Shown in pieces: positions 11,265 through 28,388 of a stretch of 42,049 nt of DNA. Source of the DNA: Methylibium sp. (GTDB lineage: Bacteria > Pseudomonadota > Gammaproteobacteria > Burkholderiales > Burkholderiaceae_C). The notes below the pieces were generated by a model. The model did not search any database. It had not been told where the DNA came from and saw only the letters and a list, made by a program, of their open reading frames with translations. The stretch spans positions 1 through 42,049 of the forward strand of contig NZ_JACDCW010000027.1 in NCBI RefSeq assembly GCF_013817345.1. The letters are read 5' to 3'. Each line of letters starts with the position of its first letter. Within the stretch, counting starts at the first letter, position 1. Position numbers and translations under genes: made by a program.

Positions 11265-11331
11265 GCCGCTCACAGGCCGGTGCGTATTCCGTCGCGGGTT
11301 GCCCGACGTCGCCGGCGAGCGGGAAAGCTCG

Positions 11332-11679: not shown

Positions 11680-11713
11680 GGCATCCGTCGTCCCCGTCGA
11701 GCGGGCGGCTCGC

Positions 11714-12070
11714 ATGAAAAGATCCAACGACGCACGCGCCCGCGGCCATGCCGCGTACTGGGCTTTCGTTGTGCACAGAGTCTCGGGGCTGCTGCTGGCG
11801 TTGTTTCTGCCGCTGCATTTCTGGGTGTTGGCGCAGGCGCTGCATGGCCACGCGGCGTTCGACCGTTGGCTGCGCCTGGCGGACATGCCGCTGTTCGAGT
11901 TTGCCGAGTGGGGCCTGGTCGTGCTGCTGTCGATGCACATGGTCGGCGGCGTTCGTCTGCTGCTGATCGAGTTCACGCCCTGGAGCGGTTTGCGCAAGAA
12001 CTGGATCGCCGGCGCGGCGGGTTTCTCGGTAGCAACCGGGATGGCGTTTGCGTTGGCCTTGGTCACATGA
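11714..12070 (+). CDS. SDH/FRD-like cytochrome b membrane anchor subunit 2
   Basis: The 118-residue protein has three transmembrane helices and the SdhC-type signatures HRVSGLLLALFLPLHFW (residues 21-37) and LSMHMVGGVRLLLIEF, where the His is the usual axial haem ligand preceding a conserved GxR. It would anchor the SdhB-like subunit to the cytoplasmic membrane and form the quinone site with subunit 1. The segment NWIAGAAGFSVATGMAFALALV forms the last helix. It starts 34 nt after the previous gene. Confidence 0.83.
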   Translation: MKRSNDARARGHAAYWAFVVHRVSGLLLALFLPLHFWVLAQALHGHAAFDRWLRLADMPLFEFAEWGLVVLLSMHMVGGVRLLLIEFTPWSGLRKNWIAGAAGFSVATGMAFALALVT

Positions 12071-12122
12071 TGTCGGGCGAGCCGCGCCATCCCGGTACGG
12101 CACCCTTGGAGAGGACAGATCG

Positions 12123-13121: not shown

Positions 13122-13164
13122 GTTTGCTGTCCGGCAGCACCGCCATCCACGAGGAGTCGAAACC

Positions 13165-14040
13165 TTGAAGATCGATCTGCAGCGCGTCGAGGACGCAGCC
13201 AAGGAGTTGTACATCCGCGCGCTGAAGGTGCTGCCGCCGGACATCAAGCAAGGCTTCGACCGTCTCGCCGCAAGCGAGACGGCGCCGACCGCCCAGCGCG
13301 TGCTCGGCACGATGCTGACCAACATCCGCGTGGCCGAGGACACAGACAACCTGCTGTGCCAGGACACCGGTGTGCCGATCTACAACGTGGCGATCGGCCG
13401 CGGCATCGAGCTCGACGGCCATGCGCTCAAGCAGGCGGTGCGGCGCGGCTGCGAGCGCGCCACGCGCGAGTACCCGCTGCGCTCGTCGGTCGTGCACCCG
13501 CTCACGCGCAAGAACGAGCACACCTCGTGCGGCATCGAGGTGCCGGTGATCCACATCGACTTCATCGACGTGCCCGACCGGCTCGAGATCGAAATGATCC
13601 CCAAGGGCAGCGGCTCGGAGAACAACTCCTTCCTGAAGATGGCGATCCCGGCCGAAGGCATCGACGCGATCAAGGCCTTCGTGATCGACTGCGTGCTCGC
13701 CGCCGGCGGCAAGACCTGCCCGCCGACGATCGTCGGCGTGGGTCTGGGCGGCACCTCGGACCTCGCGGTGGCGCTGGCCAAGCGCGCGGCAACGCGCGAG
13801 TTGGGCAGCGTGTGCAGCGATCCCGATGGCGCCGCGCTGGAAGCGCAACTGTCCAAGGCCGTCAACGAACTCGGCGTCGGGCCGCAGGGGCTCGGTGGCG
13901 ACTCGACCGCGTTCGCGGTACAGATCGAACTGGCCGGGACGCACATCACGATGAATCCGATCGCCGTGAACATGCAGTGCCATTCGGCGCGTCGCGCGCG
14001 CGCCACGTTCACGCCGGACGGCGTGAGCTACGGCTTCTGA
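13165..14040 (+). CDS. Class I fumarase/L(+)-tartrate dehydratase-type hydratase, alpha subunit
   Basis: The 291-residue protein corresponds to the N-terminal (iron-sulfur) half of class I fumarases, as in TtdA. Three likely [4Fe-4S] ligands are Cys65 (NLLCQDTGVPIYN), Cys185 (GKTCPPTIVGVGLGG) and Cys272 (NMQCHSARRA). Other family motifs are LTRKNEHTSCGIEVPVIH, PKGSGSENNSF and GPQGLGGDST. Members hydrate or dehydrate fumarate, tartrate, mesaconate or related diacids; the substrate cannot be fixed from sequence. The start is TTG at 13165, supported by a GAGGAG site 8 nt upstream. The beta subunit starts 14 nt downstream. Confidence 0.92.
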   Translation: MKIDLQRVEDAAKELYIRALKVLPPDIKQGFDRLAASETAPTAQRVLGTMLTNIRVAEDTDNLLCQDTGVPIYNVAIGRGIELDGHALKQAVRRGCERATREYPLRSSVVHPLTRKNEHTSCGIEVPVIHIDFIDVPDRLEIEMIPKGSGSENNSFLKMAIPAEGIDAIKAFVIDCVLAAGGKTCPPTIVGVGLGGTSDLAVALAKRAATRELGSVCSDPDGAALEAQLSKAVNELGVGPQGLGGDSTAFAVQIELAGTHITMNPIAVNMQCHSARRARATFTPDGVSYGF

Positions 14041-14666: not shown

Positions 14667-16375
14667 AGTACCGGCGCATCCAGACGGATGTCCTGATCCT
14701 CGGCTCCGGCGGCGCGGGCCTCTTCGCAGCGCTGCATGCTCATGCCGCCGATCCCTCGCTCTCGGTCACGGTGGCCGTCAAGGGGCTGCTCGGCAAGTCG
14801 GGTTGTACGCGCATGGTCCAGGGCGGCTACAACGTCGCGCTGGCCGAAGGCGATTCGGTCGAGCGCCATTTCATGGACACGATCGAGGGCAGCAAGTGGC
14901 TCGCCGATCAGGAACTCGCGTGGACGCTGGTCGAGCAGGCGGTCGTGCGCATCCGCGAACTCGAGAACGAGCTCGGCTGCTTCTTCGACCGCAACCCCGA
15001 CGGCACCGTGCACCAGAAAGCGTTTGCCGGGCAGACCTTCGACCGCACCGTGCACAAGGGCGACCTGACCGGCATCGAGATCATCAACCGCCTCGCCGAG
15101 CAGGTCTGGGCGCGCGGCATCGGGCGCCTCGAGGAACACCGGGCGATCGAGCTGGTTCGCACGGCCGACGGCAGCGCCATCGCCGGCGTACTGATGATCG
15201 ACATTCGCAGCGGCGAATACGTCTTCGTCCAAGCCAAGGCCGTGCTGCTGGCCACCGGCGGCGGCCCGACCATGTACAGGTACCACACGCCCTCGGGCGA
15301 CAAGAGCTGCGACGGCCTCGCGATGGCGCTGCGTGCCGGTCTGTCGCTGCGCGACATGGAGATGGTGCAGTTCCACCCGACCGGCCTGCTGGCCGGCTCT
15401 GGCACGCGCATGACGGGCACTGTGCTCGAAGAAGGCCTGCGCGGTGCGGGCGGCTACCTTCTCAACGGCGGTGGCGAACGCTTCATGGCCCGTTACGACG
15501 CACGCGGCGAACGCGCCACGCGCGACATCGTCTCGCGTTCGATCTTCACCGAGATGCGCGCCGGCCGCACCTCGCCCAACGGCGGCGTCTTCATCGAGAT
15601 GTCGCACCTCGGCCCCGACAACGTGCGCCGCCAGTTCAAGGGCATGGTCGAGCGCTGCGCCGACTGCGGTTTCGATCTGGCGGGCGGACGGGTGGAGGTG
15701 GTGCCAACCGCTCACTACCTGATGGGCGGCGTGGCGTTTCGCCCCGACTGCTCGACCGCGCTCACCGGCCTGTTCGCCGCCGGCGAAGACACCGGTGGGG
15801 TGCATGGCGCCAACCGGCTGGGCGGCAACGGCGTCGCCAACTCCACCGTCTTCGGCGGCATCGCGGGCGACACGATGGCCGCGTGGGTCCGCCGCAACGG
15901 CGGCTGGCGAGAGCCGGACGAGGTGGCCATCCGGCAGAGCATCACCGCGCATGAAGTGCCGTTCCAGCAGAAGGCCGGCAGTACCGAAGCGATCCGCGAA
16001 GAGCTGTTTGCCTGCATGTGGGAAGACGCCGGCATCCTGCGCACCGAACAGGGCCTGCGGCGCGCGCAAACGAGGCTGATCGAACTCGACGCCGAACTCG
16101 CGCGCACCGGAGTGTCTGCGGACGACCGCACGTTCAACGTGAGCTGGCACGAATGGCTCAATCTGAAGAGCCTGATCGACGTGAGCCGCGCCATCACGGT
16201 GTCGGCACTGGCCAGAGAGAATTCGCGCGGCGCGCATTTCCGCGAGGATTTCCCGGAGGTCGGCGACCTCGAAACGTCGACCTTCACTGCCGTGCGCCGG
16301 CAGGGCGCGGAGCTCGAGGTCCGCCACGAGCCGGTGCACTTCACGAAGATCAGGCCGGGCCAGAGCCTCATTTGA
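14663..16375 (+). CDS. SDH/FRD/NadB-family flavoprotein subunit, non-canonical
   Basis: The 570-residue FAD protein would oxidise or reduce a dicarboxylate with the SdhB-like subunit. The dinucleotide motif is LILGSGGAGLFAAL (residues 11-24). Catalytic features kept by comparison with E. coli SdhA are His238 (FHPTG), Glu257, Arg287 (TRDIVSR), His351 (AHYLMGG) and Arg385 (GANRLGGNG). Two are changed: the residue aligned with the covalent-FAD His is Cys48 (KSGCTRMVQGG), and the conserved Thr before EGxRG is Glu256 (TVLEEGLRG). FAD is therefore probably non-covalent and the substrate may differ from succinate. The GTG at 14663 overlaps the hydratase stop. NadB is unlikely because the partner Fe-S and anchor subunits are present. 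Confidence 0.9.
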   Translation: MKYRRIQTDVLILGSGGAGLFAALHAHAADPSLSVTVAVKGLLGKSGCTRMVQGGYNVALAEGDSVERHFMDTIEGSKWLADQELAWTLVEQAVVRIRELENELGCFFDRNPDGTVHQKAFAGQTFDRTVHKGDLTGIEIINRLAEQVWARGIGRLEEHRAIELVRTADGSAIAGVLMIDIRSGEYVFVQAKAVLLATGGGPTMYRYHTPSGDKSCDGLAMALRAGLSLRDMEMVQFHPTGLLAGSGTRMTGTVLEEGLRGAGGYLLNGGGERFMARYDARGERATRDIVSRSIFTEMRAGRTSPNGGVFIEMSHLGPDNVRRQFKGMVERCADCGFDLAGGRVEVVPTAHYLMGGVAFRPDCSTALTGLFAAGEDTGGVHGANRLGGNGVANSTVFGGIAGDTMAAWVRRNGGWREPDEVAIRQSITAHEVPFQQKAGSTEAIREELFACMWEDAGILRTEQGLRRAQTRLIELDAELARTGVSADDRTFNVSWHEWLNLKSLIDVSRAITVSALARENSRGAHFREDFPEVGDLETSTFTAVRRQGAELEVRHEPVHFTKIRPGQSLI

Positions 16376-17118
16376 TGGATCCGACGCTGCCGGCCTACGT
16401 CGGCATGGCGGCCGTCGTGTTCCTCGCCTACACGGTGTTCGGCCTCACCGGCTTCGGCTCCTCGATCGTCGCGGTGCCGATCCTTGTTCAGTTCGTTCCG
16501 CTGAGCTTCGCCGTGCCGCTGGTGCTGCTGTTCGACCTGGCGGCGACGTCGGCGGTGGGCGTGAGCAACTGGAAGCAGATATCCCGCATGGAGTTGCTTC
16601 GCCTGCTCCCATGCATGCTGATCGGCATAGCGATCGGCGCGATTGCGCTGGTCGGCGTGCAGGCCCGGTGGCTGCTGCTCACGCTGGGCGTCTTCGTGCT
16701 CGCGACCGCGACGTGGAGCCTCGTCGCGCCGCCGGCTCGCCACGCCATCGGCACGCTGTGGGTCGTGCCGGCTGGTCTTGTCGGTGGCGTCTTCAGCGCA
16801 CTGTTCGGCACCGGTGGGCCGATCTACACCATCTATCTGGCGCGCCGCATCCAGGACGCCGGGTCGCTTCGCGCGACGATGTCCGCGGTCGTCCTGATCA
16901 GCGCGCTGTGCCGGCTCGCCGCCTTCGCCGGCGTCGGGCTCCTGCAGCAGGACCACTTGCTGCTCAGTGGCTTGTGGCTGCTTCCGGCCTGCGCCGCGGG
17001 TGTGTTCGCAGGCAGCAGGCTGCGTGGTGTACTGCCGCCCGCACGCGTCAAGCAGGCGCTCTTTGTCGTGCTGATGCTCGGCGGCGCAGGCGCCATCGTG
17101 CGGGCGTTGTCGATGTAG
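16375..17118 (+). CDS. TauE/SafE (TSUP) family membrane permease
   Basis: The 247-residue protein has seven to eight predicted transmembrane helices and the internal repeat typical of TSUP transporters: the GLTGFGSSIVAVPILVQFVPLSFAVPLVLLFDL half and the GGVFSALFGTGGPIYTIYLARR half. The family exports or imports sulfite, sulfoacetate and other organic anions; the GTGGP motif in the second half is characteristic. Its ATG overlaps the flavoprotein stop by one base (TGATG). As last gene of the dicarboxylate operon it may carry the substrate or a product across the membrane. It is convergent with the ThDP enzyme, with only 15 nt between the stops. Confidence 0.9.
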   Translation: MDPTLPAYVGMAAVVFLAYTVFGLTGFGSSIVAVPILVQFVPLSFAVPLVLLFDLAATSAVGVSNWKQISRMELLRLLPCMLIGIAIGAIALVGVQARWLLLTLGVFVLATATWSLVAPPARHAIGTLWVVPAGLVGGVFSALFGTGGPIYTIYLARRIQDAGSLRATMSAVVLISALCRLAAFAGVGLLQQDHLLLSGLWLLPACAAGVFAGSRLRGVLPPARVKQALFVVLMLGGAGAIVRALSM

Positions 17119-17133
17119 CGGAGAACAGGCGGC

Positions 17134-18771
17134 TCAACGCCGACTGACCGCGGGCGCAGGCAGGCCTTCGATCATGAGGTTGAGACACGCGGGCAGCCTG
17201 CTTTGCAGCGCGCGCTGGGCCGCTGCCGCTACCTGCCCCGGGTCGGTGACGAGTTCGCCATGGCCGCCGAAGCCGGCCGAGACCAGGTCGTACCGGGTGG
17301 GAAGCAGGTCGCAGCCGACCAGTCGCTGGGCACCGTAGTCGCGAAGCTGGATCTGATATTCGGCGTTCCAGCGAGCATCGTTGCCGACCACAGCGACAAA
17401 CGGGAGCTGGTAGCGAACAGCCGTGTCGATCTCTGCGGCATGGAAGCCGAAGGTACCGTCCCCCAGCACTGCGACGACCGGTGCATCGGGTTTTGCAACG
17501 CGCGCGGCCAGCGCAAACGGCAGCGCCGCACCGATGGCACCTGCTACGCCGTTGATGACACGGTTCGGCGCTTTCAGGCAGGCCTGCGCCCACTGGCCGA
17601 TCTCGCCGCCATCGGAAACGAAGACGGCATCGGGATGCCTGTCGAGCAGGCTTTGCAGAGGCCGCAAGGCCTGCACGGGATGCATGCGGCCGGGTTCGGC
17701 GGACGACGCCTCGGTCCAGCTAGGCGGTCTGAAAGCAACCGCATCACGGACCTCGCCTCGCCAGGCGGAAGGGCCGACACGCTGTCGCGATGCGAGTCCG
17801 GTCAGCGCGGCGATCGACGACGCGGCATCGGCGACTGCGACGCCTTCCAGCCGCGAGCCGACCGCCCTGCGAGTGCGATCGAGTTCTTCGGTCTCGGCAT
17901 CGATCTGCAGAAAAACGCAGTCGGCGTGCAAGGCCGGCGCCTGGCCGAAGCGCAGGGTGAAGTCCAGGCGCTTGCTCAACAGCAGCACGCAGTCGGCCTG
18001 GGCGAGCACCTCCGCGAACGCGCCGAGACTCGGGTCCTGGATGCCGCGGGGGCTTTCCATGCCGATGACCGGGATGCCGGTCGCGTCTTCCAACGCGGCC
18101 AGGCGTTGGCGGCTCTCTTTGCTGAGACTGGCTGGTCCCACGAGAACGAGAGGCCGCTTTGCCGCGCCAAGGCATTCCAGCATGGAAGCCGCGATGCTCG
18201 GATCGAGGGACATTGCCGTGGCCTTGGATTGCGCCGCGTCGGGCAGGCCGGCGGATTGCGCCTCGGCTTCGATCACGTCGGTGGGCAGGCTCAGGTGCAC
18301 CGGCCCGGGACGCCCCGAAAGGGCCGTGCGCACGGCCCGAGCGAGGTCGCTTGCCAGCGCATCGGTTCGTTCGCTCGTCCAGCTCGCCTTCGTGACCGGA
18401 CTCGCCAGGTCGGCCTGCCGCATTTCCTGAAAGGCGCCCATGCCGATCTGCTTGATCGGCGCATGCCCGGAGAGCAGGACGACCGGGGACTCCGACATCT
18501 GCGCCGTGTACAGCGCAGACACGGCATTTGCATGCCCCGGTCCCCCGGTCACCATCGCGATGCCCGGCTCACCGGTCAACCGCGCATAGGCATCGGCCAT
18601 GTGTACCGCCGCCGCCTCGTGCCGCGTGTGGATCAGACGCAGGCCCGCGTCGAGTGCGGCGTCGAACATCGGCATGATGTGATTGCCCGACAAGGTGAAG
18701 ATCTGCCGAACGCCGATGCTGGCCAGCGATGTCATCAACGCATCGGCACCTCGAAATTTGCCTCGGGTCAT
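17134..18771 (-). CDS. Thiamine-diphosphate-dependent enzyme, acetolactate synthase/decarboxylase family
   Basis: The 545-residue protein has the three ThDP-enzyme domains. The N-terminal PYR domain has the catalytic Glu52 in HTRHEAAAVHMADAYAR and GGPGHANAVSAL. The middle domain covers about residues 190-330 and the C-terminal PP domain has the ThDP-binding motif GDGTFGFHAAE...VVGNDARW. Relatives include acetolactate synthase, oxalyl-CoA decarboxylase, 2-hydroxyacyl-CoA lyase and benzoylformate decarboxylase; I cannot tell which reaction applies. It is the last gene of the minus-strand CoA operon and may process a 2-oxoacid or aldehyde released by that pathway. The ATG at 18771 is chosen because the domain starts there; a Bug gene lies 56 nt upstream. 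Confidence 0.9.
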   Translation of the reverse strand: MTRGKFRGADALMTSLASIGVRQIFTLSGNHIMPMFDAALDAGLRLIHTRHEAAAVHMADAYARLTGEPGIAMVTGGPGHANAVSALYTAQMSESPVVLLSGHAPIKQIGMGAFQEMRQADLASPVTKASWTSERTDALASDLARAVRTALSGRPGPVHLSLPTDVIEAEAQSAGLPDAAQSKATAMSLDPSIAASMLECLGAAKRPLVLVGPASLSKESRQRLAALEDATGIPVIGMESPRGIQDPSLGAFAEVLAQADCVLLLSKRLDFTLRFGQAPALHADCVFLQIDAETEELDRTRRAVGSRLEGVAVADAASSIAALTGLASRQRVGPSAWRGEVRDAVAFRPPSWTEASSAEPGRMHPVQALRPLQSLLDRHPDAVFVSDGGEIGQWAQACLKAPNRVINGVAGAIGAALPFALAARVAKPDAPVVAVLGDGTFGFHAAEIDTAVRYQLPFVAVVGNDARWNAEYQIQLRDYGAQRLVGCDLLPTRYDLVSAGFGGHGELVTDPGQVAAAAQRALQSRLPACLNLMIEGLPAPAVSRR

Positions 18772-18827
18772 TGTGCTTTCCAGTCTGAAGGGGCTTGGCA
18801 ATCGCAGGTTGCGCGGCCTCGCGCAGG

Positions 18828-19841
18828 CTACTTCTTGCTGTCGATGATATTGAGCTGCTCGCCCAGCGACCGATAAAGCTCGTGCTGTTTGCGGGCGAAC
18901 TCCTTCGTCTCGCCGGGCGTCGTCACATACGGGATGGAGCCCGTTTGCGCGGTGCTTTTCAGCCATTTCGGGTCTTTCGAAACGGTCTTCAGCACGGACA
19001 CCCACTTGTCACGCACGTCGTCGGGCAATCCCGGCGGGCCGAAAAGGGCGCTCCAGCCGACGATGAGCTCCATGTCCTTGAAGCCGAGTTCACGGGCGGT
19101 CGGCACATCGGGCAAGGGCTCGATGCGCTCGGCGGTGGTGACCATCAGCGCACGCAGCTCACCACTCTTGATCAGGCTGAGGAAGGGCCCGAGGCTGCCG
19201 CAGGAGAATTCGGTCTCGTTGCCCATCAGCGACATCGTGGTGTCACCTGTGCCTTTGTAGGGAATCTGCGTCGGCACCTGGTCGGTGACCTTCAGCAACC
19301 TGAACAACTGGCGCGGGCCCATGTCGTTCGTCGTCAGGCTGCCGGCCGTGGCGTAGTTGAGCGTCTTGCCTTTGGTGCGGATGGCCTGGGCGAGGTCCTC
19401 GAACTTCTTGTAAGGCGACTTCGCATTGACGACGCAGCCGTAGGGGTTGAGCTCCAGCGTGCCGATGAAGGTGTAGTCGTCCCACTTGTACTTCGTCGAG
19501 GTCGGCTCGATGGCCGGCAGGATGGATTGCGATCCCGTTCTCGCGAGCAGCAGCGTGTAGCCGTCGGGTGGGGCGGCGACCACCTGGGCGGACCCGATCA
19601 CGCCGCTGGCGCCGACCTTGTTCACCACGACGATCGTTTGACCGAGGACGTCCTGTGCGGCAGCGGCCAGGCCGCGCGCGGCGAGGTCGGCGTCGCCGCC
19701 CGTGCTGTAGGGCGAGATCAGCGTGACGGGGCGGTTGGGATACGAGCTTTGCGCGAAGGCGGTGGTGTTGACCGAGAACGTCGCGGCGATCGCTGCGCCG
19801 GCGAACAGTCGGGACATCAGGCGTCGGGATCCGTATTGCAT
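18828..19841 (-). CDS. Bug/TctC-type solute-binding protein
   Basis: The 337-residue periplasmic receptor has a signal peptide (residues 1-30, ending TTAFAQ) followed by YPNRPVTLISPYSTGGDADLAARGLA, VVVNKVGASGVIGSAQVV, IPYKGTGDTTMSLMGNETEF and PLPDVPTARELGFKDME. The anchoring PFxxGG loop is PYSTGGDAD rather than the common PFAPGGSTD, a likely difference in the ligand pocket. There are no TctA/TctB genes nearby. It lies between the acyl-CoA synthetase and the ThDP enzyme genes, so it probably collects the acid that this operon degrades. A GGAG site precedes the ATG at 19841. Confidence 0.93.
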   Translation of the reverse strand: MQYGSRRLMSRLFAGAAIAATFSVNTTAFAQSSYPNRPVTLISPYSTGGDADLAARGLAAAAQDVLGQTIVVVNKVGASGVIGSAQVVAAPPDGYTLLLARTGSQSILPAIEPTSTKYKWDDYTFIGTLELNPYGCVVNAKSPYKKFEDLAQAIRTKGKTLNYATAGSLTTNDMGPRQLFRLLKVTDQVPTQIPYKGTGDTTMSLMGNETEFSCGSLGPFLSLIKSGELRALMVTTAERIEPLPDVPTARELGFKDMELIVGWSALFGPPGLPDDVRDKWVSVLKTVSKDPKWLKSTAQTGSIPYVTTPGETKEFARKQHELYRSLGEQLNIIDSKK

Positions 19842-19891
19842 GGTTTTGTCTCCAGGTGAATATCGGTCGAGGTGGGGCGGGCTTGTCTTGG

Positions 19892-19933
19892 CTATCTGTC
19901 GTTCTTCATCGTGCGTGCTTCCTTCGTCTTCAT
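19892..19933 (-). other. Possible 13-codon mini-ORF downstream of the acyl-CoA synthetase gene
   Basis: The codons MKTKEARTMKNDR-stop begin at an ATGA overlap with the acyl-CoA synthetase stop. The ORF contains most of a TCTTCATCGTGCG direct repeat (19903-19915 and 19927-19939, 24 nt apart) that may have arisen by local duplication. It has no ribosome-binding site of its own, and expression is doubtful. Confidence 0.2.
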
Positions 19934-22083
19934 CGTGCGGGGTGGCGCTGATCCTCGAGCACCATCACGCAATCCACGGCGATCGGCCCATCGGCGCCGA
20001 CCAGCACCGGGTTCAGATCGAGTTCGGCCAGCAAAGGGTGCATCGCGGCCGCCCAATGCGAAAGTCGGGAAAGCATGTGTGCGATCGCTGTGCGATCCAC
20101 GGCAGGCTGCCCGCGCACGCCGTCGAGCAAGGCGGTCATGCGCAGTTCGCGAAGCATCGCTTGTGCTTCGTCGGCATCGAACGGCGCGTGGCGGAACGCC
20201 ACGTCCTTCAGCACTTCGACCAGCACGCCGCCCAGTCCGACCATGACGATCATGCCGAACACCGGATCGCGCTGCACGCCGACGACGAGCTCCAGATGCC
20301 CCTGCGCCATGCCTTGCACGAGCACGCCTTCGAGGCGCGCATGGGGCATCGCCTCGCGAGCGCGCTGCATCAGGGTCCGATAAGCCTCGCGCACCGCGCC
20401 TTCGTCGTTGAGCTTCAGGATCACGCCGCCGACTTCGGTCTTGTGCGTGATGTCGGGCGACTCGATCTTCAGCACCACAGGCGAACCGACGGCGCGCCAC
20501 TGCGCGACCGCCTGGTCTTCATCGCGCGCCAGCGACACCGCTGCCATCGGCACGCCGGCGGCGCGCAGCCATTCGGTCGCCTGAACGCTGGGTTGCACGC
20601 CGTCGACGATGCCGCCTGCGGTGGCATCGACAGGCATGATGTGCAAGGCCTTTACCGCGGCGGATTTGTCAGCGAGCGCCTTGCGCTGGAACGCGTGGTG
20701 CCGGGCCAGCGCGGCTGCCGCCTCCACCGCGCGTTCCCCCGCGGTGAACACGACGATGCCCTGGGCGCGCAGCTTTTGCATGGCATCGGCCGGCGCGGCG
20801 ACCCAGCAGACGAAGAGCGGCTTGGTCGTGCGATCACGGATCTCGCAGAAGATGTGCACCAGGGTATCGACGTGCGCCGTCATCAGCTGCAGCCAGACGA
20901 TCCCGATGTGGATGTTCGGATCGTCCAGCAGCGCCACGACCGACTCGCGCAGCAGTTCGGGACGCGCCACGAACTGGCCGGTCACATCGACCGGGTTGCC
21001 TGCGGCACCGAACGCGGGCATGACCTCTGCCAGACGCGATGTCGTTGCAGGCGTGAGCTCGGGCACCACGAGGCCGACTTCTTCGGCACGGTCGGCCATC
21101 ATCACTCCGGCGCCGCCGGACTGTGTCGCGATCCCCAGGCCGTTGCCGCAGGGACAACGGTCCTGGCTGAGCGCCTCCAGCATGTCGAGCATCTGCTCTT
21201 CGTTGCGAGCCCGCAGCACGCCGTACTGGCGGATCACAGCGTCGAACACGGCGTCGGTGACGGCCAGTGCGCCGGTATGCGACGCCGCGGCGCGCTGGCC
21301 CGAGGCCATGCGGCCGACCTTGGTCAGCACCAGCGGCTTGTTCAGTTCGCGGCAGCGCCGGGCCAGGCGGATGAGCGAGGCCCCGTCGTCCAGGCCTTCC
21401 AGGTAGCCGGCCGCCACCCGGATGCGCGGATCCTCGATCACGCTCAGCATCAGCTCGCTGAAGTCAAGGTCGGCCTGGTTGCCGGTGTTGATGAAGTAGC
21501 CGAGGCCCAGGCCGCGCTCGCGCGCCAACGCTGCAATCGCGGTCCCGAATGCGCCGGACTGTGTGACGAAGGCGATCGGTCCCGGCCCGGTCTCGCCGTC
21601 CGCGTACTGGCTGAAGGTCGCGTAGACGTTCTCGAAGGCGTTGACGAAGCCCAGGCAGTTGGGGCCGCACAGCACCATGCCGTGCGAGCGGGCGCATTCG
21701 GCCAGCGCGTGTTCCATCGCCAGGCCCTCGGGCCCGGTTTCACCGAAGCCGGAGCTGAAGATCACGGCAGCGCGCACGCCGCGTTGGCCAAGCGCGTCGA
21801 TGCTCTTGAACACCTCGCTCGCCGGCACCGCCACGATCGCGAGATCGGCGGCCTCGGGCAGGTTCGCGACTGTGGGGTAGCAGGTAAGCCCCGCGATCTG
21901 CGCGTACTTGGGGTTCACCGGCAGGATGCGCCCCGTGTAGCCCTTGTCCATCAGGTGCTTGAGCGGTCGTCCGTTGATCTTGGAAAGGTCGGACGAAGCG
22001 CCGATCACGGCGATCGACCGGGGATGGATCAGTGCGGCGATCGCATCGGCGCGATGGCAGGGAAGGGGAGTCATGGCGCGCAT
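19930..22083 (-). CDS. ADP-forming acyl-CoA synthetase (acetate-CoA ligase family)
   Basis: The 717-residue single-chain enzyme should activate a carboxylic acid to its CoA thioester with ATP, giving ADP and phosphate. Domains in order are: CoA-binding Rossmann fold (IHPRSIAVIGASSDLSKINGRPLKHL, about 19-44), succinyl-CoA-ligase-like domain with the phospho-His in AAASHTGALAVTD (His269), a flavodoxin-like domain (about 310-450), and a C-terminal ATP-grasp domain (PVVLKIESPDITHKTEVGGV and onward to LAELDLNPVLV). The ATG at 22083 follows directly on the TAA of the acyl-CoA dehydrogenase gene; a second ATG lies at 22074. Its place beside dehydrogenase, hydratase and thiolase-like genes makes it the probable entry step of the pathway. 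Confidence 0.93.
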   Translation of the reverse strand: MRAMTPLPCHRADAIAALIHPRSIAVIGASSDLSKINGRPLKHLMDKGYTGRILPVNPKYAQIAGLTCYPTVANLPEAADLAIVAVPASEVFKSIDALGQRGVRAAVIFSSGFGETGPEGLAMEHALAECARSHGMVLCGPNCLGFVNAFENVYATFSQYADGETGPGPIAFVTQSGAFGTAIAALARERGLGLGYFINTGNQADLDFSELMLSVIEDPRIRVAAGYLEGLDDGASLIRLARRCRELNKPLVLTKVGRMASGQRAAASHTGALAVTDAVFDAVIRQYGVLRARNEEQMLDMLEALSQDRCPCGNGLGIATQSGGAGVMMADRAEEVGLVVPELTPATTSRLAEVMPAFGAAGNPVDVTGQFVARPELLRESVVALLDDPNIHIGIVWLQLMTAHVDTLVHIFCEIRDRTTKPLFVCWVAAPADAMQKLRAQGIVVFTAGERAVEAAAALARHHAFQRKALADKSAAVKALHIMPVDATAGGIVDGVQPSVQATEWLRAAGVPMAAVSLARDEDQAVAQWRAVGSPVVLKIESPDITHKTEVGGVILKLNDEGAVREAYRTLMQRAREAMPHARLEGVLVQGMAQGHLELVVGVQRDPVFGMIVMVGLGGVLVEVLKDVAFRHAPFDADEAQAMLRELRMTALLDGVRGQPAVDRTAIAHMLSRLSHWAAAMHPLLAELDLNPVLVGADGPIAVDCVMVLEDQRHPAR

Positions 22084-23301
22084 TTACTTGAAGGCGGAGA
22101 TGCCCGTCTGCGCGCGGCCGAGCACGAGCGCATGGATGTCGTGCGTGCCTTCGAGCGTGTTGACGGTTTCCAGATTGAGGACGTGTCGAATCACGTGGTA
22201 CTCGTCGGAGATGCCGTTGCCGCCGTGGATGTCGCGCGACATGCGCGCGATGTCCAGCGCCTTGCCTGCGCAGTTGCGCTTGAGCAGGGAGACCATCTCG
22301 GTGCTCGCCTTGCCTTCGTCGCGTAGCCGGCTCAGGTGCAGGCAGGCGATCAGGCCGAGGTTGATCTCGGTCTGCATGTCGGCCAGCTTCTTCTGCACGA
22401 GCTGGTTCGCGGCGAGCGGCCGGCCGAACTGCTTGCGGTCCAGTGCGTACTGGCGTGCCGCGTGCCAACAGAACTCGGCCGCACCCATCGCACCCCAGCA
22501 GATGCCGAAGCGCGCATTGTTCAGGCAGGCGAAGGGGGCGGCGAGGCCGTCGGCGCCGGGCAGGCGCTGCGCCTCGGGCACGAACACGTCGTCCATGTGG
22601 ATCTCGCCGGTGGGCGATGCGCGCACGGAGAACTTGCCCTCGATCTTGCTGGTCGACAGGCCCTTCATGCCGCGCTCGAGAACGAAGCCGCAGACCTTGC
22701 CGTCGTCGTTCTTGGCCCACACGATCATCAGGTCGGCGATCGGCGCATGGGTGATCCAGGTCTTGTTGCCGCTGAGGCGCCAGCCGCCCTCGACCTTGCG
22801 CGCGCGGCTGATCATCGAGCTCGGGTCGGAGCCGTGGTCGGGCTCGGTCAGGCCGAAGCAGCCGAGCTTGTCGGCGCGTGCCATCGCCGGTAGGTACTTC
22901 TCGCGCTGCTCCTGGCTGCCGAACAGGTAGATCGGCATCATGCTCAGCGTGCTCTGCACGCCGAGTGCGGAGCGATAGGCCGTGTCCACGCGTTCGAACT
23001 CGCGGGCGATCAGGCCGTAGCCCACGTAGCTGATGCCGGCACAGCCGAAGCCGTCGATGGTCGCGCCGAGGAAGCCGAGCTCGCCCATCTCGCGCATCAC
23101 TTCGATGTCGAAGCGCTCGTGGCGGTGCGCCTGCAGGATGCGCGGCATCAGGCGCTCCTGCGCATACTTGTGCGCGCTGCCCTGGATCATCACTTCTTCG
23201 GGCGTCAGCAGGGAATCCAGGCGCAAGGCGTCCTGCCAATCGAAGGCCACGTCCTGCATGGCGGCCTTGCGCAGGGTCGCTTCGTCGGGCGCGGCGTTCA
23301 T
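22084..23301 (-). CDS. Acyl-CoA dehydrogenase, glutaryl-CoA-dehydrogenase-like
   Basis: The 405-residue FAD enzyme oxidises an acyl-CoA to the 2,3-enoyl-CoA. The ending [20 protein letters not shown] supplies the catalytic base Glu384 in the GcdH context, and the GcdH-typical [13 protein letters not shown] (Arg110) is present, together with [13 protein letters not shown] and the [14 protein letters not shown] core. In human GcdH the equivalent Arg contacts the distal carboxylate of glutaryl-CoA, so a dicarboxylyl-CoA substrate is plausible; GcdH also decarboxylates to crotonyl-CoA. Whether this copy is the housekeeping GcdH or a paralogue is unknown; the neighbours (DUF35/thiolase-like pair) are not those of the usual lysine/glutarate locus. 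The start overlaps the DUF35 stop by 4 nt (ATGA). Confidence 0.93.
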
Positions 23302-23747
23302 GCAGGGCGAGCCTCGGGGGCGGCTTGCTGCGAGGGCCGGAATTTCGGGATGCCGGCCTCCTCGCTGATCGCTTCGAAGTACGCCTCCACGCGCATGCCG
23401 ATGCGGAGTTCATCGGGCTTGCAGTGCGTCACCTGGCCGTACATGCGCGCGCCGTCGTCCAGGTCGATCAGGCACATCAGCACCGGCAATTCGGCCTGCC
23501 AGCCGGAGAAGTTCATGGCCACCGAGCGCGACACGGTGTACGAGTAGACGGTGCCGAAGGGCTTGGCCTCCGTCCATGCAAGCTCGCGGCTGCCGCACTC
23601 GATGCACCACGGCTTCGGATGGAAATTGAAGGTGGCGCAGCGCGGGCATTTCTGCAGCATGAGCTTGCCGTTCTTCGCGCCCGTCCAGAAGGGGCGAGTC
23701 AGGTCGGTGATGACGGGCAGCGGTTTGGAGAGGGCGGTCTCGGTCAT
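23298..23747 (-). CDS. Zn-ribbon/OB-fold (DUF35) acyl-CoA-binding partner protein
   Basis: The 149-residue protein has an N-terminal helix ([20 protein letters not shown]), a zinc ribbon with Cys34, Cys37, Cys48 and Cys51 (CPRC...CIEC) and an OB-fold ([11 protein letters not shown] to GMRVEAYF). DUF35 proteins bind acyl-CoA and form obligate complexes with thiolase-like proteins, as in the ChsH2-Ltp2 retro-aldolase of steroid side-chain degradation and BbsA-BbsB of toluene degradation. Its gene starts 1 nt after the stop of the thiolase-like gene, which fits a two-subunit enzyme. Confidence 0.93.
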
Positions 23748-23748
23748 G

Positions 23749-24957
23749 TCATTGCTCCGTTCCGAGAACCAGGGAAATGCAGCTGCGGCCCGGGCGCCCG
23801 TACGGGATGCCGCCGAAGCCGCAGGCCGTGCCGACCGTGGCGTTGGGCACCTGCCGTTCGCCGGCCTCGCCGCGCAACTGCGTGACGGCCTCGACGAGCG
23901 GCATGAAGCCGCCGATCGCCCCGCCGGGCTGGCCGCCGGAGAGCTGACCGCCGTCTGTGGACATCGGAAAGTCGCCGTCGAAGCTCAGGTCGTGGTCTTC
24001 GACGAATTGGCCGCCTTCGCCTTTCTTGCAGAAACCGTGGTCCTCGATCGTCATCATCGCGATGAAGGGGTAGTCGTCGTAGGGCTGCAGGAAGTCGATG
24101 TCCTGGTGTGTCACGCCGGCCATCTTCATCGCCTGAGGCGCGGCCTGGACAAAGCCGGTGGCGGTGATGTCGGGCAGGGTGCGCGAGCCGTGGTAGTAGT
24201 TGTTGGCTTCGCCGAAGCCGCGCAGGTACACCGGGCGGTCGGTGAGCGTGCGCGCCGTCTCGGCCGAGGTCACGATGTAGGCCAGGCCGCCGTTGACGAT
24301 CGGCACGCAATCGAGCAGACGGATCGGGTCGGAAAGCATTCGCGACTCGAGGTACTCCTGCACCGTGAACGGCTTGCGGTAGATGGCGCCCGGGTTCAGC
24401 GAGGCGTGAAAGCGTGCATTGACGGCGATCTTGCCGAGCTGTTCGAACTTCAGCGCGTGCTCGTGCATGTAGCGCTTTTGCACCAGCGCGAACTGCGCGC
24501 TCGCGCCCATGACGCCGAAGGGTCCCTGGAAATCCCAGTAAACGCCGCGGGTGCGCTCGGGAGAAAGCGGCAGCCCGGGGGCGACCGACGGAATGTTCAA
24601 CGGCGTGTCGGCGCCGACCACGAGCACGCGATCGACGATGCCCGCACTGATCATCGCGGCCGCGCGGATGAGCATCGACGAAGCGGAGGCCCCGCCCTGA
24701 TCGCCGCGTATCAGCGCCTGCGGGCTGATGCCCATGTTTTCGGCCACGGCTGCCGACCAGTTGACGGTGTGCGCGACCTCGGCGTGCGCCACGCCCAGGC
24801 CCTGACCGTCGAAGTCGTTCTTCGACATGCCGGCTTTTTGCAGCGCGAGGTCGGCGGCCCAGGCGATGTAATCGTCGGCCGTCAGCACGGGCTCGCCGGG
24901 CTTGGCTCGGCTGTAAGGCGTTCGGCCGTAGCCGACGATGGCGACGTCTGGGCGCAT
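23749..24957 (-). CDS. SCP2/Ltp-type thiolase-like protein lacking the nucleophilic cysteine
   Basis: The 402-residue protein has a complete thiolase fold: VAIVGYGRTPY start, VDRVLVVGAD, the STDGGQLSGGQPGG loop (about 334-346) and the closing GTACGFGGIPYGRPG. The position where thiolases carry the acyl-accepting Cys reads GDQGGASASSM (Ala90/Ser91), and the usual His motifs are replaced by QPYDDYPF (Tyr293, Tyr296) and GGQPGG. Loss of Cys and His with Tyr present is the pattern described for Ltp2-type acyl-CoA retro-aldolases, which need a DUF35 partner, encoded next door. An aldolase is thus more likely than a thiolase. The ATG at 24957 has an AAGGA site 8 nt upstream. Confidence 0.88.
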   Translation of the reverse strand: MRPDVAIVGYGRTPYSRAKPGEPVLTADDYIAWAADLALQKAGMSKNDFDGQGLGVAHAEVAHTVNWSAAVAENMGISPQALIRGDQGGASASSMLIRAAAMISAGIVDRVLVVGADTPLNIPSVAPGLPLSPERTRGVYWDFQGPFGVMGASAQFALVQKRYMHEHALKFEQLGKIAVNARFHASLNPGAIYRKPFTVQEYLESRMLSDPIRLLDCVPIVNGGLAYIVTSAETARTLTDRPVYLRGFGEANNYYHGSRTLPDITATGFVQAAPQAMKMAGVTHQDIDFLQPYDDYPFIAMMTIEDHGFCKKGEGGQFVEDHDLSFDGDFPMSTDGGQLSGGQPGGAIGGFMPLVEAVTQLRGEAGERQVPNATVGTACGFGGIPYGRPGRSCISLVLGTEQ

Positions 24958-25013
24958 GAAGCTCGTTCCTTGAAAAGTGGATGGCGTTGTGTCGAAGGGC
25001 AGGGCGGCCGGGC

Positions 25014-25823
25014 TCATCGGCCGACGAAGGCAGGCGGGCGGCGCTCGACGAAGGCCTGCATGCCTTCCTTCTGATCGGCCGTGTCGAACAGCAGCTCGAA
25101 GGCGCGCCGCTCCAGCATCAAGCCGGTTGCGAGAGGCGCGTCGGCGCCGGCAAGCGCGACTTCCTTGATCAGGCGCAGCGCGAGCGGCGGGCGCGAGGCG
25201 ATGTGCGCGGCAAGTTCCAGCGCGCGCGCTTCGAGGGCGTCGTCTTCGACCACTTCGGTGACCAGCCCCATCGCGAGCGCTTCCTCGGCGTTGACCGGCT
25301 CGCCCGTCAGCAGCAACTTCATTGCACGGTACTTGCCGAGTGCCCTGACCAGGCGTTGGGTCGCGCCGCCCCCGGGCATGATGCCGACAGCGACCTCCGG
25401 CTGACCGAACTTCGCGCAGCGCGCGGCAAGGATGATGTCGGCGTGTTGGGCAAGCTCGCAGCCGCCCCCCAGCGCCGGGCCGGACACCGCAGCGATCAAA
25501 GGCTTGGAAAAGTCGGCGATCGCTTTCCAGTACCGCGGCACGTCGAGCTTGAAGACTTCCGCGCTGCCCAGCGCAGCGATCTCCTTCAGGTCGGCGCCGG
25601 CAGCGAAGTAGCTCGGCGCCCCGCACAGGATGACGCAGCGGGTGTCGGTGTCCCGATCGAGCTCGGTGAGCGCCCGAGCCAGCGCCTCGCGCAGGGCCGT
25701 GTTCAGCGCGTTGCGCGCTTGCGGCCGGTTCAGCCGCAGCCGGGCGACGCCGTCGAGCGGCCAGTCCAAAAGCACCGGTGCCGTGGCTTCGGCCATTGCG
25801 TTCGTCTCCCGACTCGTTGCCAT
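25014..25823 (-). CDS. Enoyl-CoA hydratase/isomerase (crotonase) family protein
   Basis: The 269-residue protein is a crotonase. It has the oxyanion-hole segments FAAGADLKEIA and SGPALGGGCELAQHADIILAA, and two Glu residues at the hydratase positions, one in GGCELA and the other in FGQPEVAVGIMPGGGATQRL. With both acids present, it is likely to hydrate a 2,3-enoyl-CoA to the 3-hydroxyacyl-CoA. It is the first gene of the minus-strand operon, divergent from a LysR gene. The start is either the ATG at 25823 or the in-frame ATG at 25796; the second lies closer to the conserved domain. Confidence 0.94.
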   Translation of the reverse strand: MATSRETNAMAEATAPVLLDWPLDGVARLRLNRPQARNALNTALREALARALTELDRDTDTRCVILCGAPSYFAAGADLKEIAALGSAEVFKLDVPRYWKAIADFSKPLIAAVSGPALGGGCELAQHADIILAARCAKFGQPEVAVGIMPGGGATQRLVRALGKYRAMKLLLTGEPVNAEEALAMGLVTEVVEDDALEARALELAAHIASRPPLALRLIKEVALAGADAPLATGLMLERRAFELLFDTADQKEGMQAFVERRPPAFVGR

Positions 25824-25905: not shown

Positions 25906-26811
25906 ATGAACCTGCGCACCTTCGATCTGAACCTGCTGCTGGTCTTCGATGCGATTTACGGTGAACGCAGCATCTCCAAGGCGGCGCACAAGCTGCACTT
26001 GTCGCAGCCGACCGTCAGCAACGCCTTGGCGAGGCTGCGCGAGCGGCTGCAGGACCCGCTGTTCGAGCGCAGTGCGCAGGGAATGTGGCCCACGCCGCGG
26101 GCGAAGAAGCTCGCCGATCCGATTCGCCAGGCCTTGAACGTGCTCGAGCGCGGCCTGCGCGGTGACGAGGCCTTCGACTTCGCCCGCTCCGACCGCGAAT
26201 TCGTCATTGCCGTGGAGGACTACGGTGAAGCCGTGATCCTGCCGGGCTTCATCAAGTGGCTGGCCGAGGTGGCGCCAAACATCCGGATCAGGATTCGCCC
26301 GGAGTCGAGCGCCCAACTCAAGGCCGAATTGCGCGAGGGCGCGGTCGACCTGGCGCTCGACTACTTCGTGTTGACCGAGTCGGCCTACCGCAACACCTGC
26401 GTGCTCACCGAAACGCTGTTGAGCCTGACGCGCCGCGATCACCCCCTGGTCAGCGAGCGGCTCACTCTAGAGCTGTACCTGGCCTTGCCTCACGTGGTGC
26501 TGGCCGCCCCTTCCAATGCGCGGCCGATGATCGATCTGGCCTTGCACAAACGCGGGCTTCAACGGCGCATTGCGGTAAGGGTGCCGCATTTCGTCTCGAT
26601 GCCGGTGATCGTCCAGACCACCGACATGATCGGCACCGTGCCCCGGCGAATGGCGTACTTGTATGCCGACAACTTCCGCTTGAAGTCGCATGCAGTGCCC
26701 TTGCGCATTCCGCAGTTTCCCGTGTACCTGATCTGGCACGAATCGGTCGAGTCGGACGAAGGGCACCAGTGGTTCCGCGACCACCTGAGGGAGTTCTGCC
26801 AGCGATTGTGA
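25906..26811 (+). CDS. LysR-type transcriptional regulator (NodD/LeuO-like) of the CoA-ester operon
   Basis: The 301-residue protein begins MNLRTFDLNLLLVFDAIYGERSISKAAHKLHLSQPTVSNALARLRERLQDPLFERS-like sequence, a textbook LysR HTH (residues 5-64) of the subgroup that includes NodD and LeuO. The effector domain follows, with DRE-FVIAVEDYGEAVILPGF and a C-terminal FPVYLIWHESVESDEGHQWFRDHLREF typical of this subgroup. It is divergent from the crotonase gene and very probably regulates that operon and itself. A GC-rich hairpin follows the stop. Confidence 0.93.
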   Translation: MNLRTFDLNLLLVFDAIYGERSISKAAHKLHLSQPTVSNALARLRERLQDPLFERSAQGMWPTPRAKKLADPIRQALNVLERGLRGDEAFDFARSDREFVIAVEDYGEAVILPGFIKWLAEVAPNIRIRIRPESSAQLKAELREGAVDLALDYFVLTESAYRNTCVLTETLLSLTRRDHPLVSERLTLELYLALPHVVLAAPSNARPMIDLALHKRGLQRRIAVRVPHFVSMPVIVQTTDMIGTVPRRMAYLYADNFRLKSHAVPLRIPQFPVYLIWHESVESDEGHQWFRDHLREFCQRL

Positions 26812-26866: not shown

Positions 26867-26901
26867 GGCGGGCCTTGCTGCGGCCCGCCTTCTTGGCTTT
26901 T
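26867..26901 (+). terminator. Hairpin terminator after the LysR gene
   Basis: An 8-bp stem GGCGGGCC/GGCCCGCC (26867-26874, 26882-26889) with a 7-nt loop is followed by the T-rich TTCTTGGCTTTT. It separates the convergent LysR and peroxidase genes. Confidence 0.6.
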
Positions 26902-28388
26902 CAAAGGGCCGTCACGACGCCTGCGGCGTTGAGCAGATCGGCTATCGTGAACTGGTCGTTGCTGCCGAGCGTCGGCGTCCAGTCGGGCTCCTGACGAAGG
27001 TAGGACATGGCGTCGCCCTGCAAGACGCCGATGAAGACCTCACCGACGATGCGCCCGCCCACGGGGCCGAGCCGTTTGCCGTCGGCGCGCAGTTCTGCCT
27101 CCTTGAGGATGTAGAACCACAAGGGCGTGCTGTCGTCCAGGTGCAGCGGCGCCAGATCAGCCAGTTCGGCAGGGGTCAGCGGTTCTTCTTTCATGGCCTT
27201 GGCGACGCGTTGGCCTGACGGCAGCTTGAAGGTCAGGTGGCGCAGCAGATTGCGCCCGGCCAGTGATTGCGGCTCCCCGCCCGGCATGCCCGGCAGATCG
27301 AACAGCACGCTCGAAAGCTTGCTGTCGATGCGCTTGTTGTTGCGCGGCGGCGGGCTGCCGAAATCGAAGAAGGTTTGCCAGTCGATGAAGCGGTCGGCCG
27401 CACGTGTGCCACCGCGCATGTCGAAGGCGATCGGACTGACGGCCAGGTTGTCGTTGAAGAGCAGGGCGAACACTTCGCCGGTCGATACGGGGCCGAAATT
27501 GACGCGGTAACTCGAGCGAATTTGCGAATGCCCGAAGCGGTAGGCCGATACCGAGAACTCCACCGGGATGTAGGGCGCGTTGCGCCACTTGTAGAACTTG
27601 CGGCCGTTCTCGAGGATGTCGTCGACCATCGCCTGGCCGATGGTCTTGGGCAGGAACTCGTGCACGATGATCCACTGGTAGTGCCAGCGCACCAGGCGCT
27701 GCGCCTCGGTGAAGATCTCGTGCGTATTGGTGCTGCCGGTGTGGGCCTTCACCTTGGCAACCATGGCGTTGTGAAAGCGCAGCATCGCCACATGCAGCTG
27801 CGAAAGCACCATGTTTTCGTCGTTGCGCGGGTCGCCCATGATCGGCGTGCCCTGGCTGTTGCGTGGCAGGTCGAACTTTTGCGAGCCATCGCGGCACTGG
27901 GCCGGCGAGCCGGGAATGGCTTCGACCAGGAAGGTGGTGCGGCCGTCGTCGATGCTCTGGTCGTAGAGCGCCGGCGAGCCTTGGGGACCCTGGCCATACA
28001 CGCTGTCGAGCTCGAACGCCGGCGTGCGGAAGTTCTGAATCAGCTCCGGATCGACCTGCTGCTCCAGGCTTGAAGTGATGTCGAGCGTGAGATCGTGATC
28101 GAGGAACTGGCCGAGGAACGTCATACCGGCCGGCATGTCGGGGTTGTCGGAATTGTTGAGCGACAGGTTGGCGTCGGTAATGAGGTCGCGCGGGTGTGCG
28201 GTGAGCTGATCCATCGCGTCCATCAGGCCGCCTTGCTTGCCGAGTTCCTTGAGTGCGGCGCGCTTGCTCGGCGTGTCGGCGGCGAAGGGCGGTAAGTTGC
28301 CGAAAAGGCGGCCGAACTTGCCTTGGTCGTAGAAGCTGGAGGTGGGTGGGCTGTCGCCCGATCGATAGACTTTTCCGTGTCCTGCCAT
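26901..28388 (-). CDS. Animal-type haem peroxidase (peroxidase-cyclooxygenase superfamily)
   Basis: The 495-residue protein keeps the catalytic residues of the myeloperoxidase superfamily. GQFLDHDLTL supplies Gln94, Asp97 and distal His98, GDPRNDEN supplies Arg188 and Glu191, and AYRFGHSQIRSSY supplies proximal His287. Asp97 and Glu191 match the residues that form haem ester bonds in mammalian enzymes. No signal peptide is visible, so secretion, if any, would need another route. Such peroxidases are scattered in bacteria and oxidise halides, phenols or lipids; the substrate here is unknown. The ATG at 28388 has an AAGGAG site; a 7-bp hairpin (28411-28430) lies in its leader. It stands alone between divergent and convergent neighbours. 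Confidence 0.92.
   Translation of the reverse strand: MAGHGKVYRSGDSPPTSSFYDQGKFGRLFGNLPPFAADTPSKRAALKELGKQGGLMDAMDQLTAHPRDLITDANLSLNNSDNPDMPAGMTFLGQFLDHDLTLDITSSLEQQVDPELIQNFRTPAFELDSVYGQGPQGSPALYDQSIDDGRTTFLVEAIPGSPAQCRDGSQKFDLPRNSQGTPIMGDPRNDENMVLSQLHVAMLRFHNAMVAKVKAHTGSTNTHEIFTEAQRLVRWHYQWIIVHEFLPKTIGQAMVDDILENGRKFYKWRNAPYIPVEFSVSAYRFGHSQIRSSYRVNFGPVSTGEVFALLFNDNLAVSPIAFDMRGGTRAADRFIDWQTFFDFGSPPPRNNKRIDSKLSSVLFDLPGMPGGEPQSLAGRNLLRHLTFKLPSGQRVAKAMKEEPLTPAELADLAPLHLDDSTPLWFYILKEAELRADGKRLGPVGGRIVGEVFIGVLQGDAMSYLRQEPDWTPTLGSNDQFTIADLLNAAGVVTAL

Follow-up and report, generated by a model that had tools for sequence, protein, structure and literature searches.

The stretch of DNA analysed here (the window) is a contig of 42,049 nucleotides from Methylibium sp. 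(NZ_JACDCW010000027.1). It carries a minus-strand run of seven genes, predicted to encode a coenzyme A (CoA)-dependent catabolic pathway whose probable substrate is a short sulfonated acid. Because the gaps within the run are only -4 to 88 bp, it reads as one operon. A LysR-type regulator gene is divergent from the run and a TauE/SafE-family transporter gene is convergent with it (Table 1). Each family assignment is backed by Pfam, except that the N-terminal thiolase domain scores just under its cut-off. All eight genes named in a preliminary description of this DNA, the divergent regulator included, were confirmed in this way. Its statement that the set has neither a 3-hydroxyacyl-CoA dehydrogenase nor a genuine thiolase also held within the operon, as judged from open reading frame (ORF) calls and a domain scan. 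Glu123 and Glu143 of the hydratase lie at what we take to be the catalytic positions. The G+C content of the window is 64-72% in 2-kb blocks.

Table 1. Predicted features of the operon region in the window, and related clusters from other genomes
Feature	Position	Strand	Basis or remark
TauE/SafE-family anion transporter	16375..17118	+	convergent with operon; start by eye, 16396-17118 scanned
Thiamine diphosphate (ThDP)-dependent enzyme	17134..18771	-	nearest to 2-hydroxyacyl-CoA lyase/acetolactate-synthase-like families; accessory, not Xsc
Bug/TctC periplasmic solute receptor, putative acid uptake	18828..19841	-	Pfam
ADP-forming acyl-CoA ligase (acetate--CoA ligase type), proposed CoA-ester maker	19930..22083	-	domain models
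GcdH-like acyl-CoA dehydrogenase, 'LEG' subfamily	22084..23301	-	residue alignment
DUF35/ChsH2 zinc-ribbon OB-fold partner	23298..23747	-	Pfam; four Cys kept
Thiolase-fold retro-aldolase candidate	23749..24957	-	Gly89, YDDY 293-296, Gln338, Gln343
Enoyl-CoA hydratase	25014..25823	-	PRK08138 just above cut-off; PaaF second, under cut-off
LysR regulator, divergent	25906..26811	+	nearest model BsrA, under cut-off
Claisen-type cluster, L094	7433-11466		
Claisen-type cluster, L095	9113-13126		
Claisen-type cluster, L096	9751-19500		
Claisen-type cluster, L097	6812-10905		
Claisen-type cluster, L103	4225-15653		

Relatives of the operon were sought by searching plasmids with tblastn and by scanning one genome per species for exact copies of either of two peptides of the thiolase-like protein, GVYWDFQ or EANNYYH; the exact-peptide requirement biases the sample towards close relatives. 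The single close plasmid relative was pENH92 of Cupriavidus necator NH9, which is 82% identical and has the same gene order without the ThDP gene. The scan added 32 genome contigs, 69-97% identical, from Burkholderiales, Rhizobiaceae and other Alphaproteobacteria, together with two contigs labelled Gammaproteobacteria. NH9, for which only the plasmid record was searched, is counted among these 33 other loci and not among the genomes (loci and genomes carry L and G numbers below). Gene calls in the relatives came from a simple ORF caller and some starts and frames are wrong; residue and locus counts use the tblastn matches.

A gene-neighbourhood comparison, which the preliminary description had named as a check, revealed a conserved core. 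Beside the thiolase-like gene, the DUF35 gene was found in 31 of the 33 other loci, and the dehydrogenase and the ligase in 27 each. Several of the missing genes fall at contig ends, and in L041 and L032 the dehydrogenase and ligase are absent from the stretch read; the two DUF35 misses are L055, where the contig ends inside the gene, and L057, where only residues 1-218 are matched. The accessory genes were found less often: the LysR regulator in 21 loci, a hydratase (at least 33% identity) in 16 and the Bug receptor (at least 50% identity) in 15. The 15 loci with Bug are all labelled as Burkholderiales or as members of that order. Other loci have TRAP-TAXI importers (L036, L037, L039, L047, L044, L032), NitT/TauT-type ABC systems (L028, L033, L045/L046) or TctABC-like genes (L050), some of these recognized by eye. 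Since the type of importer varies around a constant core, the imported acid seems to feed a fixed set of enzymes. At about 14.8 kb in L036, L037 and L039, a gene of the 3-hydroxyacyl-CoA dehydrogenase family lies behind the TRAP-TAXI genes (the L037 copy was scanned), so that not every copy of the operon lacks such a gene in its vicinity.

The active site of the thiolase-like protein was compared in 33 sequences (the window, NH9 and 31 loci; the L057 match, 218 of 402 residues, was excluded and its genome kept as a carrier of the operon). The position of the nucleophilic cysteine of thiolases is Gly89 in all 33, and Tyr293-Asp294-Asp295 of a YDDY motif (293-296) is equally invariant. Asp295 occupies the position of Cys304 in Sal and His296 in Ltp2. 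The histidine of the thiolase GHP motif is replaced by Gln343, which is also at the position of Tyr344 of Ltp2, and Gln338 and Gln343 align with Gln347 and Gln352 of Sal; both glutamines are found in the 32 of 32 sequences with letters there. According to the pertinent passages of PMC12329534, the base and the acid are Tyr302 and Cys304 in Sal, and Tyr294 and Tyr344 in Ltp2. The known catalytic acid is thus not kept, being replaced by Asp295 or Gln343, and for this reason we say that the protein probably works like Sal and Ltp2, not that it is one of them. The cysteine-less retro-aldolase proposed in the preliminary description is supported at the level of these residues, and we infer an aldolase with a Tyr/Asp pair. 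Among solved structures the closest by sequence are 4u4e, a Sphaerobacter 'thiolase', and 9myr, and 9myr also had the best E-value in a search with the predicted fold. Cys34, 37, 48 and 51 of the DUF35 protein are kept in 32 of 32 sequences.

With the bile-acid side-chain aldolase CtSal-CtShy(DUF35) (9myr) and with Ltp2-ChsH2(DUF35) (6ok1), the operon pair would share a thiolase fold without the nucleophilic cysteine, Gly89, the tyrosine base of a YDxx motif and a DUF35 partner; with Sal it also shares the glutamine pair. Unlike Sal (Cys) and Ltp2 (His), it has Asp in this motif. Unlike those systems, the operon has a separate crotonase-type hydratase, and its importers and the link to Xsc described below point to a small sulfonate in place of a steroid. 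Asp295 at the site of the essential Cys304 of Sal and the oxyanion His296 of Ltp2, taken with Gln343 at the Tyr344 position, could mean that the protein is an acyltransferase or has a structural or regulatory role; we consider this highly improbable in view of the agreement with Sal at Tyr293, Gly89, Gln338 and Gln343, the Tyr-Asp-Asp sequence in 33 of 33 proteins and the DUF35 gene adjoining in nearly all the other loci. Fourteen more distant homologues within the order have YDCF (13) or YDAF (one), and a His by the GHP site. On plasmid pJP4 (L025, 8989-10592), near tfdA, a thiolase-like gene with a DUF35-type partner encodes YDDF and has Gln where the His of GHP would be, which shows that the Asp motif also occurs outside this operon; this second candidate is accompanied by an acyl-CoA synthetase and a ring-hydroxylating dioxygenase gene.

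The dehydrogenase scores 567 bits against human glutaryl-CoA dehydrogenase (GCDH). Throughout the 28 operon copies compared, Glu103, Arg110, Ser111 and Glu384 are kept, including the substrate-binding arginine (Arg94 of GCDH) and the catalytic glutamate (Glu370). The same 28 copies differ from GcdH in having Leu383 in place of the pocket residue Tyr369. His185 is found in 27 of them, followed by Ala186 in the window, so that the WITNSP of GcdH becomes WITHAP. Five genomes were checked for a normal enzyme, leaving aside the NH9 plasmid record; in all five, that of the window included, a separate Tyr-type enzyme, 62-64% identical, is also encoded. According to the relevant section of PMC3169403, the tyrosine of GCDH makes a hydrogen bond to the substrate arginine and interacts with the carboxylate lost as CO2. 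In other families, as stated in part of PMC8360864, substitution of the pocket tyrosine is tied to alpha-substituted or bulky substrates, LEG being the motif of isobutyryl-CoA dehydrogenase. Given Leu383 and the second, Tyr-type enzyme, the operon dehydrogenase is on sequence grounds a dedicated paralogue with a carboxylate- or sulfonate-binding arginine, and its pocket is probably enlarged. The high score against the human enzyme would also fit true glutarate degradation, in which decarboxylation to crotonyl-CoA is followed by cleavage of 3-hydroxybutyryl-CoA. The invariant leucine and the separate Tyr-type enzyme make this very unlikely, and it was dropped because each of the five genomes has that second enzyme. 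Oxidative decarboxylation of 3-substituted glutarates (tricarballylate, 3-methylglutarate) was dropped as well, only the chemistry being in its favor once the link to Xsc had appeared.

Sulfoacetaldehyde acetyltransferase (Xsc) was examined because the TauE gene, which is found near the operon in five loci (the window, L051, L036, L037 and L039), and the transporter neighbors suggested a sulfonate. Using the curated cut-off of TIGR03457 (676.4 bits), Xsc was found in 31 of 33 carrier genomes, made up of 27 of the 29 genomes or records first searched, where one of the misses is the NH9 plasmid record and so no genome, and 4 of 5 genomes added afterwards. The background is 34 of 300 genomes of the window's order including the window's own, G000 (33 of 299 others); in the order to which the genome of L037 belongs it is 63 of 249 with G301 and G343, a carrier found later, counted in (the comparison uses 62 of 248). 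For carriers against the other 299 genomes of the window's order Fisher's test gives p ~2e-23, a comparison tilted in that only the top few first-look candidates of each background genome were scored, and nearly all of those in the carriers. Grouped by contig title, the values are 8e-16 for carriers of Burkholderiales type (19 of 20) and 1e-6 for the others (12 of 13). Since kinship is uncorrected, all these values are to be taken as strong, not exact. Oxalyl-CoA decarboxylase, used as a control family, was found in 9 of 33 carriers and 50 of 299 others (51 of 300 with G000), with p 0.11.

In two carriers Xsc lies near the operon. In G343, which surfaced in a search for the dehydrogenase, one run holds the thiolase-like gene, DUF35, TAXI, a TRAP permease, Xsc (913.7 bits) and an acetate-kinase-like gene just under its cut-off, with the LysR, hydratase, dehydrogenase and ligase genes divergent from it. 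In L049, the contig and strand of the operon also carry Xsc and a Pta-like gene, about 3 kb upstream; two genes intervene, one of which has the opposite orientation. The genome of the window has Xsc on another contig. A pair of genes for CobS/CobT- or MoxR-type ATPase-like proteins (two gene clusters of 8 members each) was seen by eye to recur near IclR-Xsc-Pta loci (L073, L074, L078-L083, L085 and L049; L079 and L049 are one contig).

The ThDP enzyme encoded in the window itself is not Xsc. It scores 325.7 of 600 bits with the 2-hydroxyacyl-CoA lyase (HACL) model and 202 of 676, under the cut-off, with that of Xsc. Beside the operon its gene is found only in the window and the sister locus L051 (94%), with a 44% homologue in L042, among the 33 other loci. 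The preliminary description had this enzyme processing the released carbonyl product; that part was not borne out, and the gene was dropped as a candidate for the role for want of conservation alongside the operon. The carbonyl product seems to go to another ThDP enzyme, Xsc. The corresponding place in C. necator NH9 (L024, 19185-21956) holds an epoxide-hydrolase-like fragment, recognized by eye.

Taken together, the evidence makes it rather likely that the operon is a catabolic set for a short omega-sulfonated acid, most likely 4-sulfobutanoate, with Xsc acting on the product. The substrate above all, together with each reaction and the product, is predicted from the gene content, its conservation, the residues and the link to Xsc. 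The acid would be taken up through the Bug receptor and converted by the ADP-forming ligase to 4-sulfobutanoyl-CoA, the sulfonate counterpart of glutaryl-CoA. This likeness would explain the recruitment of a GcdH-type enzyme and the loss of the pocket tyrosine: Arg110 would hold the sulfonate at the site of the glutarate carboxylate during alpha,beta-dehydrogenation, so that nothing would be decarboxylated. The hydratase would then form 3-hydroxy-4-sulfobutanoyl-CoA. On the thiolase-like protein and its DUF35 partner, Tyr293 would accept the hydroxyl proton, the C2-C3 bond would break and the enolate may be protonated by Asp295; the products would be acetyl-CoA and sulfoacetaldehyde. Xsc, whose gene usually lies elsewhere in the genome, would convert sulfoacetaldehyde and phosphate to acetyl phosphate and sulfite, and the sulfite would be removed by a TauE-type exporter or by sulfite oxidation. 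The logic set out in the preliminary description, from uptake through CoA activation, desaturation and hydration to aldol cleavage, is supported as a prediction by the conserved core and the aldolase-type residues; a sulfonate was not among its proposals.

Taurine and isethionate routes are among the Xsc-dependent entries of sulfonate dissimilation. The pathway predicted here would converge with this dissimilation, including that of sulfoacetate and 2,3-dihydroxypropanesulfonate (DHPS), on sulfoacetaldehyde and Xsc, and TauE and SsuA-like importers are found at some of the loci. Unlike the known routes, entry would be by CoA activation, dehydrogenation and retro-aldol cleavage, which is not among the entry routes in the portions of PMC11489063 and PMC12890257 consulted. 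The same portions describe ADP-forming ligases for sulfonated acids. With SauCD, SqwKL and HpfYZ the operon has in common the ADP-forming activation of a sulfonated carboxylate, and unlike theirs its ligase is one fused protein, predicted to act on a C4 acid.

Besides the uneven depth of the Xsc searches, several observations weigh against a sulfonate pathway of this kind. Xsc was not over the cut-off in carriers G325 (2.4 Mb) and G329, and its proximity to the operon in L049 and G343 concerns only 2 of 34 carriers, where at most 10 kb per side was fetched and many stretches are cut by contig ends. The SsuA-type receptors beside the operons of L033 and L046, which count in favor of a sulfonate, match under the cut-off. 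So does the SoxC-like gene that, with a cytochrome c gene, directly precedes the thiolase-like gene in L041 (336 bits, cut-off 420; 315 of 408 model positions). TauE proteins have also been proposed as sulfonate exporters, in a passage of PMC11489063. The hydratase was not found in 17 of the 33 other loci. True thiolases match the predicted fold of the aldolase candidate with TM-scores equal to or better than that of 9myr, so the fold alone cannot decide between aldolase and thiolase, and the model has a pLDDT of 71.9 with poor active-site loops. We know of no natural source of 4-sulfobutanoate, and the three papers that matched its name look unrelated by title and abstract start. Finally, SauS, an enzyme of the sulfoacetate pathway, is over its cut-off in 22 of 34 carriers (and in one more in two pieces), so that the link to Xsc may in part reflect carriers that are sulfonate generalists.

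The dehydrogenase family supplies another such point and, with it, the main rival. Seven sampled genomes have a Leu-type dehydrogenase (72-77%) with no thiolase-like orthologue seen (for G551, only the 20-kb L103 was read), and in five of them (Table 1) it adjoins a 3-hydroxyacyl-CoA dehydrogenase and a 3-oxoadipyl-CoA-type thiolase. Four of these thiolases were scanned, three being above the PRK08131 cut-off and the fourth half a bit under it, as were two of the dehydrogenases; L103 also holds a LysR regulator, hydratase, ligase and TRAP-TAXI importer of the same kind as in the operon. Such apparent Claisen-type sets suggest either adipate or the same sulfonate, thiolysed to sulfoacetyl-CoA. 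On the adipate side, a GcdH shifted in chain length, hydration and a retro-aldol step would yield acetyl-CoA and succinate semialdehyde or a keto acid from adipate or from a substituted adipate or glutarate, with Xsc a bystander of the host lifestyle. Dicarboxylate beta-oxidation does share the ligase, dehydrogenase and hydratase with the operon, PaaF is the second-best match of the hydratase, and TctC-type receptors bind dicarboxylates. Unlike beta-oxidation, the window operon is without 3-hydroxyacyl-CoA dehydrogenase or thiolase. The frequency of Xsc in carriers, its place within the run of G343 and the TauE, SsuA-like and SoxC-like neighbors also speak against adipate, as do the semialdehyde dehydrogenases: none recurs in the operons by eye, and the aldehyde dehydrogenase near two Cupriavidus operons is well under the cut-off of the succinate-semialdehyde model (the NH9 copy was scanned). 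Xsc is moreover present in six of the seven genomes with only the Leu-type enzyme, and the same six have SauS over the cut-off; this favors the sulfonate, but the genomes belong to few genera. An adipate-type route is in our view unlikely, with a chance to be taken seriously.

SauS was itself searched as a test between the aldol and Claisen versions. Of 28 genomes in the order that have Xsc but, at the thresholds used, matched neither the thiolase-like protein nor the Leu-type dehydrogenase, 17 have SauS over the cut-off, and the difference between these, the carriers and the Leu-type-only genomes is too small to decide. Twelve of the 34 carriers have no SauS over the cut-off, and ten of these have Xsc. 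The Xsc evidence would serve equally for another sulfonated acid that yields sulfoacetaldehyde, such as a 2-substituted 4-sulfobutanoate, from which propionyl-CoA or some other acyl-CoA would be formed in place of acetyl-CoA. No propionyl-CoA or methylmalonyl gene was noticed by eye, although no search was aimed at them, and we give this variant a rather slim chance.

Some neighboring genes were also noted. Behind the LysR gene of the window, at 26901-28385, is a gene for a protein of the animal haem peroxidase family (PF03098), with a 97% copy in L051. The other strand of the window at 10548-14037 has genes for an SdhB/FrdB-like Fe-S protein, a Bug-like protein (by eye) and a fumarase-family protein (PF05681); they form a second organic-acid locus, separate from the operon. 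On two alphaproteobacterial contigs, L043 (3433-5508, scanned) and L053 (85-2262, by eye), the operon has a calcineurin-like phosphoesterase gene in its neighborhood.

The preliminary description knew of no described pathway with this set of genes, and none was found in the open-licence literature when it was searched for the enzyme type, 4-sulfobutanoate, Xsc with thiolase or acyl-CoA dehydrogenase, and adipyl-CoA dehydrogenase. We put at about even the prospect that bacteria use 4-sulfobutanoate, or a C4 sulfonated acid close to it, as a carbon source that has gone unrecognised, with a parallel Claisen-type version of the pathway elsewhere. Its degradation would then involve two enzyme activities of which no description was found, a GCDH-derived 4-sulfobutanoyl-CoA dehydrogenase and an aldolase of thiolase fold that would use a Tyr/Asp pair and release sulfoacetaldehyde. 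Routes to sulfoacetaldehyde are the points at which organosulfonate sulfur enters the sulfite pool. If the sulfonate pathway is correct, a CoA-dependent retro-aldol route would be a new entry that could close a gap in bacterial organic-sulfur recycling, and it could account for Xsc in the carriers without SauS over the cut-off (10 of 34). It would also carry the mechanism of the steroid aldolases over to small substrates, with another residue as catalytic acid, and would assign a function to a conserved gene set annotated in NH9 merely as 'thiolase family protein', 'acyl-CoA dehydrogenase' and 'acetate--CoA ligase family protein'.

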